Source of the DNA: Gemmatimonadota bacterium
Lineage (GTDB): Bacteria > GCA-2686955
Assembly (NCBI GenBank): GCA_002686955.1
Contig: NYZA01000183.1
Coordinates: 1-10,269 of the forward strand
Direction of reading: 5' to 3'
Length of the DNA stretch: 10,269 nt
The position numbers were made by a program, and so were the translations under genes. Of this stretch, positions 23 to 9,044 are shown one piece after another (position 1 is the first letter of the stretch; each line of letters begins with the position of its first letter). A model generated the notes under the pieces. The model was not told where the DNA came from and made no database searches. It saw only the letters and a program-made list of their open reading frames with translations.

Positions 23-163
23 CCAGGGCACGAATCTGCGCCGCCTCGCGACGAAAGTTGGTGAGAAATGCGGGCTAGCGACGTCGAGATTGAATCGGAT
101 CCTTCCACTCACGTAGCCTGCCCTCCTCCACCGCTCCCCAGAAACCAGGCAGATCAGGCAGAC

Positions 164-1453
164 ATGCTCGACATCAAAGCGATCCGCGCCAACTCCAAAG
201 AGATAGAGGCGAGGCTCAGGCGGCGCGCACCCGACATCGATCTGAGCGAGATCGAGACCCTCGACCGCGATCGCCTCGGGCTGCTCCAGTCGGTCGAGAG
301 GCTGAAGGCGCGCCGAAACGAGATATCGAAAGAGGTGGGGAAGAGGAAGAAGGCGGGGGAGGATGCCGACTCGCTCATCGCCGACACCCGCGCCCTGGGA
401 GAGGAGCTCGCCGGTGGGCAGGACCGACTCGTCGAGTTGGAGAAGCGGATCGACGAAATCGTCATCGCGCTGCCGAACCTCCCCCATCCCGACGTGATCC
501 CGGGGGGGGATCCAAGCCAGGCTCAAACGATCCGCGAAGAGGGCGATCGCCTGACGAAGAGCGCCACGGGCGAGAACCACGTCCAGATCGCGACCCGCCT
601 TGGCCTGCTCGATTTGGCACGCGCCTCCCGCCTCGCCGGCTCCCACTTCGCGCTCCACCGGGGATGGGGCGCGCGCATCGAGTGGTCCCTCTTGCGTTTC
701 ATGATCGACCTGCACGTGGGTGAATCCGGCTACGAGCTGATCCTCCCTCCTTTCGTCGCCAACACCGAGACCCTCACCGCATCGGGCCAGCTCCCGAAGT
801 TCGCCGATCAGGTCTACCGCTGCGCCGATGACGACCTCTACCTGATCCCCACGGCCGAGGTCCCCCTCACCGCCTTCCACCGTTCGGAGATCCTCGACGA
901 AGCCTCGCTCCCTCTCCGTTACTGTGCCTACACTCCCTGTTTTCGCAGAGAGGCGGGCGCCCACGGTGCATCGGAGCGGGGGCTGATCCGCACCCACCAG
1001 TTCAACAAGGTCGAGATCTACCGTTTCACCACCCCGGAGAGCTCATACGAGCAGCTCGAGATCCTGGTGCGCCAGGCCGAAGAGGTCGTGCGCCGCCTCG
1101 GGCTCCATTTCCGCACCGTGCGGCTGGTCGCGGGGGATCTGGCGCAGCAGGCGGCGATGACCTACGACGTCGAGGTGTACATTCCGGGCCAGGAGCGCTA
1201 CTACGAAGTCTCGTCGATCTCGAACTGCGAGGAGTACCAGGCGAGACGTTCCCGGATCCGCTATCGTCCCATCGGTGGGGGCAAGGCGCGCTATGTCCAC
1301 ACACTCAACGGCTCCGCCCTCGCGACCTCTCGTCTTTTGGCCGCGATCATCGAAACCTATGCTCGGGCGGATGGCGGCCTCGATATTCCGGAAGTCCTGC
1401 GCCCGCATCTGGCCGAGGCCAGCGTGATCCACCCCGACGGGAGCACGTCATGA
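164..1453 (+). CDS. serS: Seryl-tRNA synthetase (class II)
   Basis: This cytoplasmic enzyme charges tRNA-Ser with serine in an ATP-dependent reaction and also charges tRNA-Sec where that tRNA is present. Residues 1-105 are the N-terminal arm, starting MLDIKAIRAN and continuing into a long charged coiled coil that grips the tRNA long variable arm. The catalytic domain has the serine-binding loop TAEVPLT (230-236), class II motif 2 around CFRREAGAHG to GLIRTHQFNKVE (259-284), a TYDVEVYIPGQ segment (333-343) and motif 3 TLNGSALATSR (380-390). The length of 429 residues is normal for the family. An in-frame ATG at 68 would add 32 residues of low-complexity sequence (MRASDVEIES...). Its GGTGAG lies only 2 nt from that ATG, so I prefer the ATG at 164, where homologues begin. 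The gene ends in ATGA, overlapping the next gene, so the two are probably co-transcribed and translationally coupled. Confidence 0.96.
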   Translation: MLDIKAIRANSKEIEARLRRRAPDIDLSEIETLDRDRLGLLQSVERLKARRNEISKEVGKRKKAGEDADSLIADTRALGEELAGGQDRLVELEKRIDEIVIALPNLPHPDVIPGGDPSQAQTIREEGDRLTKSATGENHVQIATRLGLLDLARASRLAGSHFALHRGWGARIEWSLLRFMIDLHVGESGYELILPPFVANTETLTASGQLPKFADQVYRCADDDLYLIPTAEVPLTAFHRSEILDEASLPLRYCAYTPCFRREAGAHGASERGLIRTHQFNKVEIYRFTTPESSYEQLEILVRQAEEVVRRLGLHFRTVRLVAGDLAQQAAMTYDVEVYIPGQERYYEVSSISNCEEYQARRSRIRYRPIGGGKARYVHTLNGSALATSRLLAAIIETYARADGGLDIPEVLRPHLAEASVIHPDGSTS

Positions 1454-2370
1454 TTCGTTCCGCATCGGTGGCCGCCACACTGATCGCGGGTCTTGCCGGT
1501 GTGGCCGGAGCCGACGCCGTAGAGGGTGCCGGAACCCAGGGATACGCCTGGGTCACCAATATCGAGGGCACACGAGCCGCGGGCATGGGCGGAGCGATGA
1601 CCGCCGCCGCGGACCCTCTCGATGCCCCCTTCTTCAATCCGGCCGCACTCGGAAATGCCGGCCTCCCCGAGTTCGAAATCGGCTACCGAACCACCTTCTC
1701 CGGCGCGAAGAGCGCCCATCTGAGCGCCGTTCAGCCGATGGGCGCCGGTGGGATCGGCTACTCGATCGCCGCCACCTCGTACGGCGCTCTCGACGAGGTC
1801 AACGACACCGGAGTGCCGACAAATCGAACCTTCACGCCGTACACGATCGCCGGCGGCTTCAGCTATGCGATTCCATCCGGCCCGTGGATGTTCGGCGGAA
1901 CGACCCGCGTGTTGACGCAATCGATCCACGAGAATCGATCGACCGCGCTCGCCCTCGATCTGGGAGCGATCTGGACATCGGCTCCGCTGGCGGTGGGAGC
2001 CGCCATCCGCCACCTCGGCATCGAGCTGGATCCGCTCGTCGAAGAGAAAGAGGCGCTCCCCCTCACCGGCTCGATCGGGGCGATGTGGAGCGAAGACGAG
2101 CTCAGTTTGGCGGCCGATCTCGAGTACTCCGAGAGCGCGGGCTTGCTCCTGCACGCCGGCGGGGAGTACATCTACCAGGAGACCTTGGCGTTGCTCCTCG
2201 GCTACGGATCGGTGGGTCGCGACCAGGCATTCGATCCCTCGATCCTCGACGGGCTCTCGATCGGCGCCGCGGTTCTCCTCGCCCGCGGGATGACCTTCCG
2301 CTACGCCGCGACCTTCCAGGGCGATCTCGGAGTCGGACACCGTGCATCGATGGGGTATTCATTCCGCTGA
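1450..2370 (+). CDS. PorV/PorQ-like outer-membrane beta-barrel protein
   Basis: A probable outer-membrane protein of the PorV/PorQ (UPF0164/FadL-like) type, 306 residues. It starts with a Sec-type signal peptide (residues 1 to about 22: MIRSASVAATLIAGLAGVAG). The family signature follows: GMGGAMTAAADPLDAPFFNP (45-64), matching the G-M-G-G-A...D....NPA pattern at the N-terminus of these barrels. The rest is alternating hydrophobic/polar beta strands with repeated G-aromatic turns (GYRTTF, GIGYSIAATSYG, GGFSYAIP, LGYGSVG). The chain ends in a short strand, MGYSFR, as barrels often do. PorV proteins in Bacteroidota serve type IX secretion, but relatives across FCB bacteria have no proven role, and nothing here shows a type IX link. 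The ATG at 1450 lies in the serS stop (ATGA). The 3' end overlaps the sigma-like gene by 29 nt. Family assignment is good; the precise function is unknown. Confidence 0.85.
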   Translation: MIRSASVAATLIAGLAGVAGADAVEGAGTQGYAWVTNIEGTRAAGMGGAMTAAADPLDAPFFNPAALGNAGLPEFEIGYRTTFSGAKSAHLSAVQPMGAGGIGYSIAATSYGALDEVNDTGVPTNRTFTPYTIAGGFSYAIPSGPWMFGGTTRVLTQSIHENRSTALALDLGAIWTSAPLAVGAAIRHLGIELDPLVEEKEALPLTGSIGAMWSEDELSLAADLEYSESAGLLLHAGGEYIYQETLALLLGYGSVGRDQAFDPSILDGLSIGAAVLLARGMTFRYAATFQGDLGVGHRASMGYSFR

Positions 2371-3553
2371 CGATTTCCCCTCCTCGGTCGCCAACTACCT
2401 TCGGCCTTCGTTCGAGCTCGCATACCGTCTGACCTGCGATCTCGACCACGCGGCGACCGTCGCCGAGGAAGCCTTGCTCCGGGCCGCGCGCTCCGGTCTT
2501 TCATCGGGCCGCGAGGCGCTGACCCTCTGCTTCGAAGAGGTCGTGGTCTCTTGCCGCGGAACAGGGGGTCGGGCGCTGCCGCCTGCTCGGTGGGATCTCG
2601 ACGGCAATCCGGCTGAGCTTCGCAGGGCTGTAAGGAGCGCCATACCGGGGCTTCCGATGCCCGCGCGGGCCGCGCTGATTCTCAGAGAGGCGTTCGAGCT
2701 CGGTGATGCGGACGTCGCCCGGATCCTGTCGGTGGAGACGGGCGGGGTCGCCGAGCTGGTCGACGAGGCGCGGATCGCTCTGGCCAGCCCCACCACCTGG
2801 TCGAGTGGCGCGGCTCCGCCACCCTCGTGGCGGCCGGCCGCTCTGGGAGTCGCCCCGGGAAGCCCCTGCGCCCGTGTTCGCGCCTCACACAACGCGGAGG
2901 TGGACGGATCGGTGCCGGCCATCGAGGGCTCGGAGGCTCAGGAGCACAGGTCGTCCTGCGATGCCTGCCGCGAGCACCGGGAGCTGATCCAGCTGGCCCA
3001 CGCACTCACGCGTCACGCAACTCCCCCCTCGCTCCAGGAGGCGTTCTGGCGGGAGCGCAGACGTGCGATCGAAGAGGCCTGGACGCGCGAAAAGGTGGCC
3101 GCCCCAGCGAAGCCCTCCATTCGAGCCGCCTGGCCGGTGGCGGCGATCCTGGCCGGGATCGTGCTTGTGACCTGGCTGCTCTCGCGCGGACCGGAGCAGA
3201 CCACGGAGCCACAGGAATCCCAGGCCGCCGCGCCTCGGATCGAGCCCGAGCAGCCCGCCCCACCGGTGATCGATCGGCCCCCGCGTCCCCGCGCCCCCGA
3301 GCCCCCCATCGAGGAGCGGCGCCTGCCGCCCCCTCGGAGCACCGAGCCGGTCGAAAAGGAGCCCCAGCCGGAACTCCCCGCGGCCCCAGCCGAGCAGGAG
3401 TCGACCCGGGAGGCCCCACCCGATAGCGCAAGCGCCGACTCCGCGGCACCGGCGCTCGACGAGCTCTACCGCAGGCTCGAGGCTCTGCCCCGTATCAGTC
3501 CGGGAAGTGCCACCCTTCGGCCCTTGACCCGGACCGGGGAGAGGGTTGACTGA
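2342..3553 (+). CDS. Fused degenerate ECF sigma / zinc-finger anti-sigma-like membrane protein
   Basis: 403 residues with a composite architecture. Residues 12-50 (FELAYRLTCDLDHAATVAEEA) resemble sigma-70 region 2 of ECF factors. Residues 94-148 (IPGLPMPARAALILREAFEL, then an ADVARILSVETGGVAELV helix-turn-helix) resemble region 4. The middle (51-90), where regions 2.3-2.4 should lie, is poorly conserved. Next come C176, H202, C206 and C209, spaced C-x25-H-x3-C-x2-C, the layout of zf-HC2 anti-sigma zinc fingers. A transmembrane helix follows at about 263-281 (WPVAAILAGIVLVTWLL), then a proline/glutamate-rich tail (283-370) and a short helical end (DELYRRLEAL). By the positive-inside arrangement the sigma-like part would be cytoplasmic and the tail periplasmic. 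The GTG start has GGAG 9 nt upstream and overlaps the previous gene. The role is inferred: either a membrane-held regulator or a sigma relic acting as a scaffold. It is unlikely to be an ordinary sigma factor. Confidence 0.75.
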   Translation: MHRWGIHSADDFPSSVANYLRPSFELAYRLTCDLDHAATVAEEALLRAARSGLSSGREALTLCFEEVVVSCRGTGGRALPPARWDLDGNPAELRRAVRSAIPGLPMPARAALILREAFELGDADVARILSVETGGVAELVDEARIALASPTTWSSGAAPPPSWRPAALGVAPGSPCARVRASHNAEVDGSVPAIEGSEAQEHRSSCDACREHRELIQLAHALTRHATPPSLQEAFWRERRRAIEEAWTREKVAAPAKPSIRAAWPVAAILAGIVLVTWLLSRGPEQTTEPQESQAAAPRIEPEQPAPPVIDRPPRPRAPEPPIEERRLPPPRSTEPVEKEPQPELPAAPAEQESTREAPPDSASADSAAPALDELYRRLEALPRISPGSATLRPLTRTGERVD

Positions 3554-5111: not shown

Positions 5112-5264
5112 ATGATCGGTCGTCGCTTTGCTCCTTGCGATTGCGAAGAGAGCGCTTCTTCGGGGGAGGAGAATCTCTTCGAGATCGTCATCCCCTACGA
5201 GGCGCTGCAAGCGGTTGGCGACCGCAACGCCCTTCGTCTGCGCATACCGCGGAGCTCGACCTGA
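5112..5264 (+). CDS. Small ORF of unknown function with a strong ribosome binding site
   Basis: A 50-residue ORF starting ATG ATC GGT CGT CGC, preceded by AGGAGGGAAGT, the strongest Shine-Dalgarno sequence in the window. The product is MIGRRFAPCDCEES followed by a glutamate-rich stretch and then LFEIVIPYEALQAVGDRNAL. The second half has mostly G or C at third codon positions, as expected for coding sequence here, while the first third is less biased. I see no signal peptide, and I do not recognise a family. A C-x-C pair (residues 9 and 11) is present. Its TGA lies one nucleotide before the ATG of the beta-propeller gene, so it may couple translation of that gene. Alternatives are a leader peptide, a real small protein, or the remnant of a longer decayed gene. 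It may not be expressed. Confidence 0.5.
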   Translation: MIGRRFAPCDCEESASSGEENLFEIVIPYEALQAVGDRNALRLRIPRSST

Positions 5265-5265
5265 G

Positions 5266-7275
5266 ATGGGCGCCCATTGGATCGGGATCGGGGCGTTGCT
5301 CATCACCATGGCGGGGGTTCCGGGCGCCGCCGCCCAACCCCCTTCCGGCTGCTCCGACGACTCCCTGACTCTGGTCCAGTGGTTGCCGCTCTTTGGGTGG
5401 GGGCCGCCGACGGCCGAGGGTGATATCGCGGTCATCGGTGGCCAGGGCGCCAACCCGGTCCTCGACCTGAGCCGCGGGCCGGTCGGCGACCGGGAGCGGA
5501 TGATCGGCCGGCTCGGAGATCTCGCAATTCCATTGCTGCACCGAGGGTTCCTATACGGCATTCCGGTGCATAAGAGCGCCCCTGCCCGGCTCGAGGCGTA
5601 CGATCTGACGAACCCGGCGTCACCGGTGCTGATCCAACGCATCGACGAACTGAGGTATCTGCATCCGACTGCCGACGAAGACCTGCTCGTGGTCGGCGGG
5701 ACAATTTCCGGTGGCGGCGGACCGCTGATCGCCTTCCGCATTCTGCCCGACGGGCGTCTGGAGCGCGCCGGCGACTTCGGCGAGCAGGGCACGTACGGTG
5801 CGAATCTGATCGAGGTCTGGAGGAACTTCGTCTATGCCGGCTACGATCGGCGGAGCGCCCAAGAGCCGGGCCATCTGAACATCCACGATCTGAGGGACCC
5901 GGAGAACCCGCTCGACGTTGGCCGGATCGACGGGCCGGGCGATGCGAAATCTTCGACCCTGGTCGACTCGATCCTCGTCGTATCGTGGCATCTGGACTAC
6001 CCGCTCTCTTTCACTGGGATCGAGGCCTACGATCTGAGCGTCGATCCGACAGAGCCCCCGAAGGTTTTTTCGTGGGAGTTCGAGGATCACTTCGATTTTC
6101 CTTGGTCTCTGGCCTCCGACGATCGCTTTCTCTACACCGTCGCTGAGTGGCCGCAGTCGAATCTGAGGGTCTACGATTTCGCTGCTCCCCAACCCTGGCG
6201 CCCGATCCAAGAGCTGCCTCTGTGGTGGGGCTCTGTCCATGGCGAGATGGCGGTTGCCGATCACGCGTTGGTCCGCAATGACAACGGGTGGCCCTATGGC
6301 ACCACGATCTTCCCGCGGCGGGCCGACGGCACCCTCGGTCCCCGCACTCGTGTCGGGTTTTACGGCTCGACCAGCAGCGTCGCGATCGTCGGCGACCATC
6401 TCTACTCGGACGCCGATGAGTCAGGGGTACTGGCGTTCAAGATAGGTCCGACCGGGTCGCTCCGGCCGGTGCAGAGGATCCAGGGTTGGTTCTCCGCCGA
6501 CATCGGCGGCTTTTCGCCGAACGGTCCGCTTCTGGTGCGAGGCCTTTCAAGAATGGCGCTCGTCCCACTATCGCCTACGGGCGAGATGGGTGAGTTCAAG
6601 GAGCTAGATGAGTGGTCGCCTCACCTCTATCCACAGACCGTGGGTTCACATGCATTCATGGCCGGAGACGGTGCCTTGGTGGCCGCCGACCTCGTCGATG
6701 GCGACACCTTGATCGTGAACAGTACCTGGCCCTTCGGGGGCTTCTCCAGCGATCTGGACAGTCAGGCATTCGGTCCCGACACCCTGCTGGCCCTCACCAC
6801 GGGCAGCCGCCTGCGCGTCTTCCGATTTACCACGAGCGCCGGCCTAGATCTGATCGCGGAAGAGCGCACCGGCTACGACACCGCCTTTCCCGGTCTCTTC
6901 TACGATACGACCGCCGGTCCCAGCGTCATCGTGCATGGCGACGATGGTGGGCTCGAGACGTACTCGATCGATCTCGCCAACCGCGAGCTCCTCCTGCTGG
7001 ATTCGCTCCGCTTCCGCCCGCGTTTTCAAGCCTGGAGCTGCTCGGTCGTCGGGGATCAGGCCTGGTTGGGCGCCAGCGACAGTCTATTCGTGGCGCAGCT
7101 CTTGCCTGGCGGCCGGATCGGCGAAATCCTGCGCCAAGAGTCGCTCAACACGGTCTGGGGGCATGCCACGGGAATCGGAAGCACGAACCGTGTCGCGCTC
7201 CCCTCCGGCAACGCCGGGGTCGTGATCTATGAGCAGCCGGATCTCGGCGATCGGAAAGCAGGTCTGCTCCAGTGA
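5266..7275 (+). CDS. Secreted beta-propeller-like protein with LVIVD/lactonase-like repeats
   Basis: 669 residues from the ATG at 5266, giving a typical Sec signal peptide (MGAHWIGIGALLITMAGVPGAAA, probable cleavage near 23). An in-frame ATG at 5128 is open but would bury the signal peptide and run across the upstream small ORF, so I reject it. Two repeat styles alternate. LVIVD-like strands are LEAYDLTNPASPVLIQRID (109-127), LNIHDLRDPENPLDVGRID (204-222), IEAYDL (252-257) and LRVYDF (300-305). Lactonase-like strands are AFRILPDGRLER (156-167), AFKIGPTGSLRP (390-401) and AQLLPGGRIGEI (610-621). The pattern suggests one or two beta-propellers exported to the periplasm or surface. No catalytic motif is visible. 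Two cysteines, C29 and C592, could pair and close the structure. The stop overlaps the next start (GTGA), so the two are co-expressed. Function is unknown; a binding or scaffold role is an inference. Confidence 0.8.
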   Translation: MGAHWIGIGALLITMAGVPGAAAQPPSGCSDDSLTLVQWLPLFGWGPPTAEGDIAVIGGQGANPVLDLSRGPVGDRERMIGRLGDLAIPLLHRGFLYGIPVHKSAPARLEAYDLTNPASPVLIQRIDELRYLHPTADEDLLVVGGTISGGGGPLIAFRILPDGRLERAGDFGEQGTYGANLIEVWRNFVYAGYDRRSAQEPGHLNIHDLRDPENPLDVGRIDGPGDAKSSTLVDSILVVSWHLDYPLSFTGIEAYDLSVDPTEPPKVFSWEFEDHFDFPWSLASDDRFLYTVAEWPQSNLRVYDFAAPQPWRPIQELPLWWGSVHGEMAVADHALVRNDNGWPYGTTIFPRRADGTLGPRTRVGFYGSTSSVAIVGDHLYSDADESGVLAFKIGPTGSLRPVQRIQGWFSADIGGFSPNGPLLVRGLSRMALVPLSPTGEMGEFKELDEWSPHLYPQTVGSHAFMAGDGALVAADLVDGDTLIVNSTWPFGGFSSDLDSQAFGPDTLLALTTGSRLRVFRFTTSAGLDLIAEERTGYDTAFPGLFYDTTAGPSVIVHGDDGGLETYSIDLANRELLLLDSLRFRPRFQAWSCSVVGDQAWLGASDSLFVAQLLPGGRIGEILRQESLNTVWGHATGIGSTNRVALPSGNAGVVIYEQPDLGDRKAGLLQ

Positions 7276-9044
7276 GAAGCCTCCAACACATCGCATCCGC
7301 GGCGCTTCTCTGCGCACCGGCGCTCTGCGCCACCATCGATGTTCCCGGCGATTTCGCTCTGATCCAAGACGCCATCACGGCGGCGCAGGACGGCGACACG
7401 GTGCTCGTGAATCCCGGCACCTACCATGAGCATGAGATCGACTACCTGCGCAAGGCGATCGTCGTGACCGGGGTCGACCCCGACGATCCAGAGATCGTCG
7501 CGACAACGGTTGTCGACGGCGATTCGGCCGGTAGTGTGTTCGTCTTCTCCCTTTCGGTGGATACGACGAGCGTGCTGGCGGGATTGACCGTGACCGGGGG
7601 GATTGCGGAGTATGGTGGCGGGATTCGTTGCGAAGGGGCGTTCGGCGCTCCCTTGATCGACCGATGTGTTGTTAGGGGGAACGCAATACCGCATCACCTC
7701 GACCTGCGGGGCGGTGGTGGCATCTACTGTGGCGGGCAGAGGCTGGCGATCATCCGTGGTTGTGTGATATCAGACAACTACGCTGCAAGAACCGGTGGTG
7801 GAATCGAGATCGCCGAGGGGGCAAGGGCCCGGATCGAAGATACCCGCATCGAGCGGAACTCGGCCGGCAGAGGCGGCGGCATTCACATCGAGGGCGCGGA
7901 GTCCTCGCTTGAGATCTATCGCTGCACGATTGTGGAGAACGAGGCCTTTGATGGGGGCGGGATCAACGGCAGCGTGACGCGGGCGGATTCGTGCGAGATC
8001 CAACGAAACACCGCCCATAACTTTGGCGGTGGCTTTCTAGGCTGTGAGATCTGGGCGACGCACTGTCTATTCGAAGGCAACTACAGTGGCATCGACGGCG
8101 GCGGCATCAGCGTTTGTGACGGGTTCGCCCCAACGATCTTCGAGGATTGCTCCATCGTCGGGAACGGAGCGGAATCCGGTGGTGGGGGAGTCTGGGCCTT
8201 CTGGGCGGATCCGATTCTGGCACGTTGCGATGTGCGGGCGAATACAGCCGCCTACGGCGCCGCGATCGGCTGCGGCCAGGCGAGTCTGGAGCTCGCCAAC
8301 TGCACAGTGACCGAGAACCGAGCCAGCGAGGACGGGGCCGCGCTCTGGTTTGAGAGTCACCTCTTCGGCGGTGTGATCGCCTCGATCTCAGGAACGACGA
8401 TCTCGGCAAATCGGGCTGGAGGCGCCGGTGGTGCGATCTACGCGGAAGAACATGACCGCGACATCGATATCGACATCGAAGCCGTTGATCTGCGCGACAA
8501 CTTCGCCGATGGGGACGGCGGCGCGGTCTTCTGCCTCGATGCTGCGATCGACTTGGTGGGCTGCATTCTCACAGGCAACAGCTCCGGCGGAAAGGGCGGC
8601 GCGATCCACGTCGCCGGCGAGGCGAGTCCCTCCGTACAGCTCGCGAGCTGCACGGTCACGGAAAACGAAGCGGCGGTCGCCGGCGGCGCCCTGTTTGTCG
8701 ATGCGGGCTCCTGGCGCACCGAGAGCGACTCCGCTCCGATCGCGGCGATCGGTTCGATTTTCTGGGCCAATCAACCCGACGAGTTTCTCGGGGACGGAAT
8801 CGTGACGCGCTATTGCGATGTCCTCGGGGGCCGGCCTGGCCTTGGCAACATCGACGCCGATCCCCGATTCACCTCTTTTCACGGTGTGGACCTCTTGCTG
8901 GCTCCAGCTTCTCCCTGCATCGACACCGGCCCGCCTTTTCTCGCCGACGATGTGCCATGGCCGCCCTGGTATCGCAACGATCCGGCGCTGGCGGACATGG
9001 GGGCGTTCGGCGGGCCGGGGGCGGCGCTACGGTGGCCGGAGTGA
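7272..9044 (+). CDS. Secreted right-handed parallel beta-helix protein with Pmp-like repeats
   Basis: 590 residues with a signal peptide (MRSLQHIASAALLCAPALCA, cleavage near 20). It then has TIDVPGDFALIQDAITAAQD and GDTVLVNPGTYHE, the usual opening of pectate-lyase-like beta-helix proteins. From about residue 100 to 475 roughly a dozen coils recur, each with a variant of GGGI followed by a cysteine- and asparagine-rich strand (for example C-T-V-T-E-N). This is the pattern of polymorphic outer-membrane protein repeats. The C-terminal part has GNIDADPRF, a PASPCIDTG element (545-553) and ADMGAFGGPG, common at the end of such proteins. No autotransporter barrel, type IX or FlgD-like sorting domain follows, so surface attachment is not explained. 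It starts at a GTG overlapping the propeller stop by 4 nt, with only a weak ribosome site, consistent with coupling. Likely an extracellular adhesin or carbohydrate-binding protein, but no catalytic residues can be assigned. Confidence 0.85.
   Translation: MRSLQHIASAALLCAPALCATIDVPGDFALIQDAITAAQDGDTVLVNPGTYHEHEIDYLRKAIVVTGVDPDDPEIVATTVVDGDSAGSVFVFSLSVDTTSVLAGLTVTGGIAEYGGGIRCEGAFGAPLIDRCVVRGNAIPHHLDLRGGGGIYCGGQRLAIIRGCVISDNYAARTGGGIEIAEGARARIEDTRIERNSAGRGGGIHIEGAESSLEIYRCTIVENEAFDGGGINGSVTRADSCEIQRNTAHNFGGGFLGCEIWATHCLFEGNYSGIDGGGISVCDGFAPTIFEDCSIVGNGAESGGGGVWAFWADPILARCDVRANTAAYGAAIGCGQASLELANCTVTENRASEDGAALWFESHLFGGVIASISGTTISANRAGGAGGAIYAEEHDRDIDIDIEAVDLRDNFADGDGGAVFCLDAAIDLVGCILTGNSSGGKGGAIHVAGEASPSVQLASCTVTENEAAVAGGALFVDAGSWRTESDSAPIAAIGSIFWANQPDEFLGDGIVTRYCDVLGGRPGLGNIDADPRFTSFHGVDLLLAPASPCIDTGPPFLADDVPWPPWYRNDPALADMGAFGGPGAALRWPE

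Follow-up and report, generated by a model that had tools for sequence, protein, structure and literature searches.

Introduction

Sigma factors and their anti-sigma partners are normally separate proteins, and the anti-sigma factor is the inhibitor of the sigma switch. Fusions of the two have been described for the actinobacterial groups ECF48, ECF52, and ECF53 (PMC8999054, PMC5826349) and for IutY of Pseudomonas (PMC5411451), and activation by proteolysis has been proposed for all of these (PMC8999054, PMC5826349, PMC5411451). ECF52 (SCO4117 in Streptomyces coelicolor) has been reported from Actinobacteria only (PMC5826349, PMC8999054). In the current view, such fusions, known mainly from ECF48/52/53 of Actinobacteria and from IutY of Pseudomonas, set an active sigma factor free. 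Here, we describe a protein of this general build from a Gemmatimonadota bacterium, in which the sigma half is degenerate. With a probability of roughly one half, it can be read as a membrane-anchored pseudo-sigma/anti-sigma fusion that is still in use.

Gene Organization and Related Genomes

The window, that is, the whole stretch of 10,269 nucleotides that was analysed, carries the fused gene at positions 2342–3553 of the + strand, on which all of the features given below also lie. It encodes one protein of 403 amino acids from a GTG start to a TGA stop at 3551–3553, and an earlier note made from the letters of this DNA had both the coordinates and the frame right. A GGAG motif is found 9 nt upstream of the GTG codon. 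The start of the gene overlaps by 29 nt the end of a PorV/PorQ-family outer-membrane barrel gene (1450–2370), which matches the NCBIfam model NF033709 with E=1.4e-24 and 87.3 bits, for a cut-off of 90, and which overlaps serS by 4 nt. The serS, barrel, and fusion genes (68–3553), overlapping head to tail, are likely to form one transcript and to be translationally coupled. The 403 codons of the fusion gene are uninterrupted by a stop or a frameshift, and GC3 is of the coding type in its own frame over most of the length; the signal is weakest at 2500–2649, a stretch that corresponds to the degraded sigma region 2.3–2.4. Further along the window, a gene at 5128–7275 encodes a long predicted protein matched by no Pfam or NCBIfam model, and the gene immediately after it (7272–9044) specifies a right-handed beta-helix protein that carries chlamydial PMP repeats.

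The collection searched includes two genomes of the phylum and of the family, that of the window (G000) and JALXCG01 (G001), which is labelled Gemmatimonadetes and contains contig C799 with the relative of the tail described below. The latter is the nearest genome by SerS; the two SerS proteins are 74% identical, and all others reach at most 52%. A scan of 85,000 named genomes with the target protein returned no relative. Of the G001 contigs, one breaks off within serS and another within the tail, so that the G001 copy stands at a contig end and the middle of the locus is absent. A WbqC-like gene runs toward the tail-bearing gene in G001, and in the window a gene of this kind, likewise oriented relative to the fusion gene, lies 5.5 kb further on. 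Contig C852 of G001 was considered as the missing piece of the locus and rejected, as it encodes a different, soluble sigma/anti-sigma pair in overlapping genes; there, an ECF sigma gene (3–587 of locus L035, 3–850) overlaps the beginning of the frame of a soluble zinc anti-sigma factor (554–850, with an ATG also at 584). Among 80 SerS loci, no sigma or anti-sigma gene like the fusion stands beside serS, the sole sigma gene being an unrelated one in L057, and the serS-linked homologues of the same order for which the earlier note had proposed a search did not turn up.

Homology and Fold of the Sigma-Like Half

The N-terminal half consists of a sigma-2-like part (residues about 8–72; 2363–2557), placed by profile and PDB alignments and by an AF2 model, and of a sigma-4-like helix-turn-helix (residues 91–148; 2612–2785), placed by TIGR02983, an ECF profile, a charge test, and PDB fold matches. 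The NCBIfam model TIGR02983 (SigE family) matches residues 77–147 with E=5.7e-7, and a dozen more ECF models of NCBIfam match the sigma-4 part behind it, all of them, TIGR02983 included, under their curated cut-offs. The Pfam match to Sigma70_r4_2 (PF08281) is sub-threshold, with E=0.017 for the whole chain and 0.0027 for residues 1–148 alone; PF22233 (PhyR sigma-like) is weakly matched with E=0.012, and PF04542 (sigma region 2) was absent from the Pfam search of the protein. PDB sequence matches to SigH/AlgU, SigW, and RpoE, individually non-significant and mutually consistent, place sigma-2 (16–68) and sigma-4 (92–147) collinearly. A profile of ECF sigmas from other phyla scored the fusion frame with E=2e-12, residues 8–51 being covered, and neither this profile nor the anti-sigma profile scored any other frame of the window. 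Of the two sigma-like stretches that the earlier note had named, the sigma-4 part is thus borne out, and the sigma-2 part is carried by a weak but collinear signal.

An AF2 model from the single sequence was poor (pLDDT 47). A second model was built on a shallow alignment with seven distantly related ECF sigmas, taken from viral contigs and genome contigs, and no anti-sigma sequences. It places the helices as in ECF sigmas, with three helices retained in the sigma-2-like part, and its pLDDT is 71–83 over most of sigma-2 and 83–92 over most of sigma-4. Because an alignment of ECF sigmas only steers the fold of this half, the model is support rather than proof, and fold matching is informative for the sigma half alone, the rest of the model being poor. 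The top structural matches are ECF sigmas in complex with anti-sigma factors; the best is RsiW-bound SigW (Z 13.7, rmsd 3.4 over 136 residues), and the PhyR sigma mimic also ranks high (Z 11.3, 2.3 Å over 119 residues).

Loss of Functional Residues in the Sigma-Like Half

Conservation was scored over the 20 most conserved columns of 44 reference ECF sigmas. The sigma half retains 6 of these 20 positions, whereas the references retain 10–19. In region 2.2, the consensus DAEDLAQETFLRAYR has become HAATVAEEALLRAAR, with the changes D to T, Q to E, and F to L, and no residues correspond to the W and N that are conserved in region 2.3–2.4. The net charge of region 2.3–2.4 is −1, compared to a reference mean of +5.4 (sd 2.1). 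The earlier note had called this region degraded, which is correct, and the same is true of the sigma-4 recognition helix: it is acidic (GGVAELVDEARIAL), the stretch VKSRLHRAR reads VAELVDEAR, and the wider recognition stretch has a charge of −2 against +3.8 (sd 1.7) in the references, none of the 44 being as low. A hidden frameshift in region 2.3–2.4 was considered and rejected, since the other frames contain stops and no sigma motif. Among the features expected of a functional ECF sigma, the sigma-4 homology is present, and the conserved residues of region 2 and a basic −35 helix are absent. Judged from its sequence, the protein has lost the residues for core RNA polymerase binding, −10 melting, and −35 reading, and has kept the helical scaffold. 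With these residues lost, the sigma half has most likely become a pseudo-sigma incapable of initiating transcription.

The loss bears directly on the possibility of a working ECF sigma factor like ECF52 or IutY, with all parts in a single chain: the tail would sense a signal, cleavage close to the membrane by site-1 and site-2 proteases would release the sigma half, and the latter would start transcription at a small and unusual set of promoters. ECF52 has the same order of parts, a proteolytic activation model exists for ECF48/52/53 and IutY (PMC8999054, PMC5826349, PMC5411451), the frame is intact, and the end of the tail is conserved; very divergent ECF sigmas might also function with unusual residues. 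Nevertheless, with nearly all invariant residues of region 2.2–2.4 lost and an acidic recognition helix, we consider an active sigma factor unlikely, at somewhat above a one-in-five chance.

The Anti-Sigma Half

A Pro/Ala-rich linker (residues 149–175; 2786–2866) joins the two halves and leads into a zinc anti-sigma domain (residues 176–262; 2867–3127), assigned by ligand alignment and by a spacing equal to that of RsrA. The pattern C176-x25-H202-x3-C206-x2-C209, with codons at 2867, 2945, 2957, and 2966, is exactly as the earlier note had it and aligns with the invariant C, H, C, and C of anti-sigma factors; the Hx3Cx2C motif with an upstream Cys/His, by which class I ZAS proteins are recognised, is present. 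An anti-sigma profile, whose alignment extends from the four ligands as far as the membrane helix, gives E=4e-11, a value that is partly circular because its seeds were found with the query itself. With a profile from seeds not derived from the query, the anti-sigma half tops 2000 shuffles by a narrow margin, which makes it a weak test. Of the 10 loci matched by the anti-sigma half alone, 8 adjoined ECF sigma genes. Pfam zf-HC2 (PF13490), the family to which the earlier note had referred the pattern, gave no match at E up to 10 with the protein, nor at 0.1 in the genome search, and HMMER filters can lose weak matches; a PF13490 match is a criterion of the library, not a defining trait of the zf-HC2/ZAS fold. 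The assignment as a zinc anti-sigma domain rests on the anti-sigma profile, the sigma-adjacent matches, and the weak independent profile, and not on Pfam zf-HC2. In the AF2 model, pLDDT over the zinc-ligand region is about 45–50, and the anti-sigma half is poorly modelled. A scan of viral contigs with the zf-HC2 DNA pattern yielded 15 stretches, and at E 0.05 none of them showed homology to sigma or anti-sigma factors.

Membrane Helix and Conserved Tail End

The transmembrane helix of the earlier note is confirmed as a single hydrophobic segment at residues about 262–281 (3125–3184), with a hydropathy of 2.17 and a helix in the AF2 model. Its flanking charges, +3 before and −2 after, predict a cytoplasmic N-terminus and a periplasmic tail. 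This tail (residues 283–403; 3188–3550) of about 120 residues contains 22% Pro and 15% Glu, which agrees with the TonB-like composition suggested earlier; in Pfam it matches no recognised domain, neither a TonB domain nor a carbohydrate-binding module. The tail end ELYRRLEALPRISPGSATLRPLT aligns with ELHRLLSELPEVSPAAAGLRPLT of G001 with a score of 99, compared to a shuffle mean of 47 (sd 7.3), and none of 2000 shuffles scored as high; about 45 C-terminal residues are conserved on contig C799. In another locus (L173, 1474–2583), an anti-sigma factor with a membrane helix ends in a TonB_C-like domain (PF03544, 24.2 bits, just below cut-off).

The conservation of these C-terminal residues in the lone related genome counts against a plain pseudogene, and together with the intact frame and the coding-type GC3 it suggests that some function of the protein is probably still under selection. 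This bears on a second possibility, a decaying relic, in which the fusion inactivated the sigma factor and the sigma half now drifts unselected, the membrane and tail part being perhaps useful or perhaps of no use at all. The weak sigma-2 part, the degenerate sigma-4 part, and the weaker GC3 frame signal at 2500–2649 could be explained in this way. They have to be set against an open frame of 403 codons free of stops and frameshifts, GC3 of the coding type in the remainder of the gene, four retained zinc ligands, a preserved helical scaffold, and the conserved tail end, and decay seems to us improbable, on a par with an active sigma factor. The earlier note had suggested a membrane-tethered relic; the membrane anchor and the lost functional residues agree with this, but the relic itself is not borne out.

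Origin from a Two-Gene Operon

Searches with the fusion protein covered 98 and 386 genomes across bacteria. In both sets, the best matches span the sigma-4 and anti-sigma parts of adjacent but separate genes in other phyla, running through the intervening stop. Fourteen matches other than the gene itself span both parts in the 386 genomes, and 13 of them cross at least one stop between genes. Since such matches read through the stop codons of neighbouring sigma and anti-sigma genes, the fusion descends from a gene pair of this kind: by sequence comparison, it derives from an operon of an ECF sigma and a membrane anti-sigma factor whose two frames were joined. No in-frame ATG, GTG, or TTG occurs between residues 131 and 187, and thus the anti-sigma part with its first zinc ligand is not made separately from a normal start.

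The lone spanning match free of stops (L165, 1087–2028, in genome G226) encodes a genuine one-chain fusion of sigma and zf-HC2 that is soluble and whose sigma part is intact. Proteins of its family (L165, L183–L194) are about 300 amino acids long; the single-chain form is maintained in about 40 of 150 genomes from one bacterial order, matches PF04542 and PF08281 above cut-off, and has no membrane helix and no tail. Given this family and the published ECF48/52/53 and IutY, the view of the earlier note that a sigma/anti-sigma fusion is exceptional was overstated.

That assembly or base-calling joined two separate genes by mistake is very improbable: the gene comes from a single contig of a metagenome-assembled genome (84.5% complete, 270 contigs), but a lost stop would be insufficient, as the anti-sigma gene would also lack an ATG, GTG, or TTG at residues 131–187, the linker is long, and the missing pieces are found in no other frame.

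Possible Mechanism

The architecture, the parentage, the lost residues, and the conserved tail end are the observations from which the reading as a pseudo-sigma/anti-sigma fusion still in use starts. The sigma-like and zinc anti-sigma halves would lie in the cytoplasm, the chain would be anchored in the inner membrane, and the Pro/Glu-rich tail would extend into the periplasm, as the predicted topology suggests. Within the chain, the anti-sigma domain probably binds the pseudo-sigma in cis and would be occupied by it. A dual interface, with helix 1 of an anti-sigma domain at sigma-4 and helix 4 at sigma-2, has been reported (PMC7406223). An envelope or redox signal, the nature of which is a guess, could then reach the sigma/anti-sigma module by way of the tail or of the CHCC zinc site and open or cleave it. 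Once exposed, the anti-sigma domain, or else the pseudo-sigma once set free, might shift the balance between a genuine sigma factor and its anti-sigma factor elsewhere in the cell, a guessed partner; this partner-switching step, taken alone, is speculative, with perhaps one chance in five. Equally tentative is a more specific form, a self-capped anti-sigma factor, in which the dead sigma copy plugs the membrane anti-sigma domain in cis and an envelope or redox signal turns that domain on against another sigma factor, so that mimic and inhibitor of a partner switch would be united in one membrane protein. If the reading as a fusion still in use is true, it would show that transcription factors of the sigma/anti-sigma fusion kind can evolve into mimics of sigma factors, a state that PhyR reached by a different route, and the protein of the window would offer a compact test case for this idea in a barely sampled phylum.

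Comparison with Known Systems

Compared by description, the protein shares with ECF52 a sigma part, a zinc finger, a transmembrane part, and a proline-rich extracytoplasmic tail in one chain (PMC5826349, PMC8999054). ECF52 has a recognisable sigma domain and a C-terminal carbohydrate-binding module, whereas the protein of the window has a degenerate sigma part, no carbohydrate module, and a host that is not an actinobacterium. With IutY of Pseudomonas putida (ECF243), it has in common a sigma factor and a membrane anti-sigma factor in one chain (PMC5411451). The sigma part of IutY is active, and IutY acts together with a siderophore receptor; the protein of the window combines a degenerate sigma part with a zinc-type anti-sigma domain, and a PorV-type barrel is encoded next to it.

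In RsrA, His37 is a ligand of the CHCC zinc site. The CHCC spacing of this ZAS protein is identical to that found here, Cys11, Cys41, and Cys44 plus 165 giving C176, C206, and C209 (PMC4960319); RsrA is a separate soluble protein, and the domain of the window is fused and membrane-anchored. The likeness to PhyR lies in a sigma fold used as a mimic and not for transcription, in line with its high structural rank and the weak PF22233 match. PhyR differs in its receiver domain, its solubility, and its binding to NepR rather than to a fused zinc anti-sigma domain. The soluble fusion family likewise combines an ECF sigma and a zinc anti-sigma domain in one chain, with the sigma intact and neither helix nor tail. 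The fusion architecture itself is already known from ECF48/52/53 and IutY, and it is the degenerate sigma half that sets the protein of the window apart.
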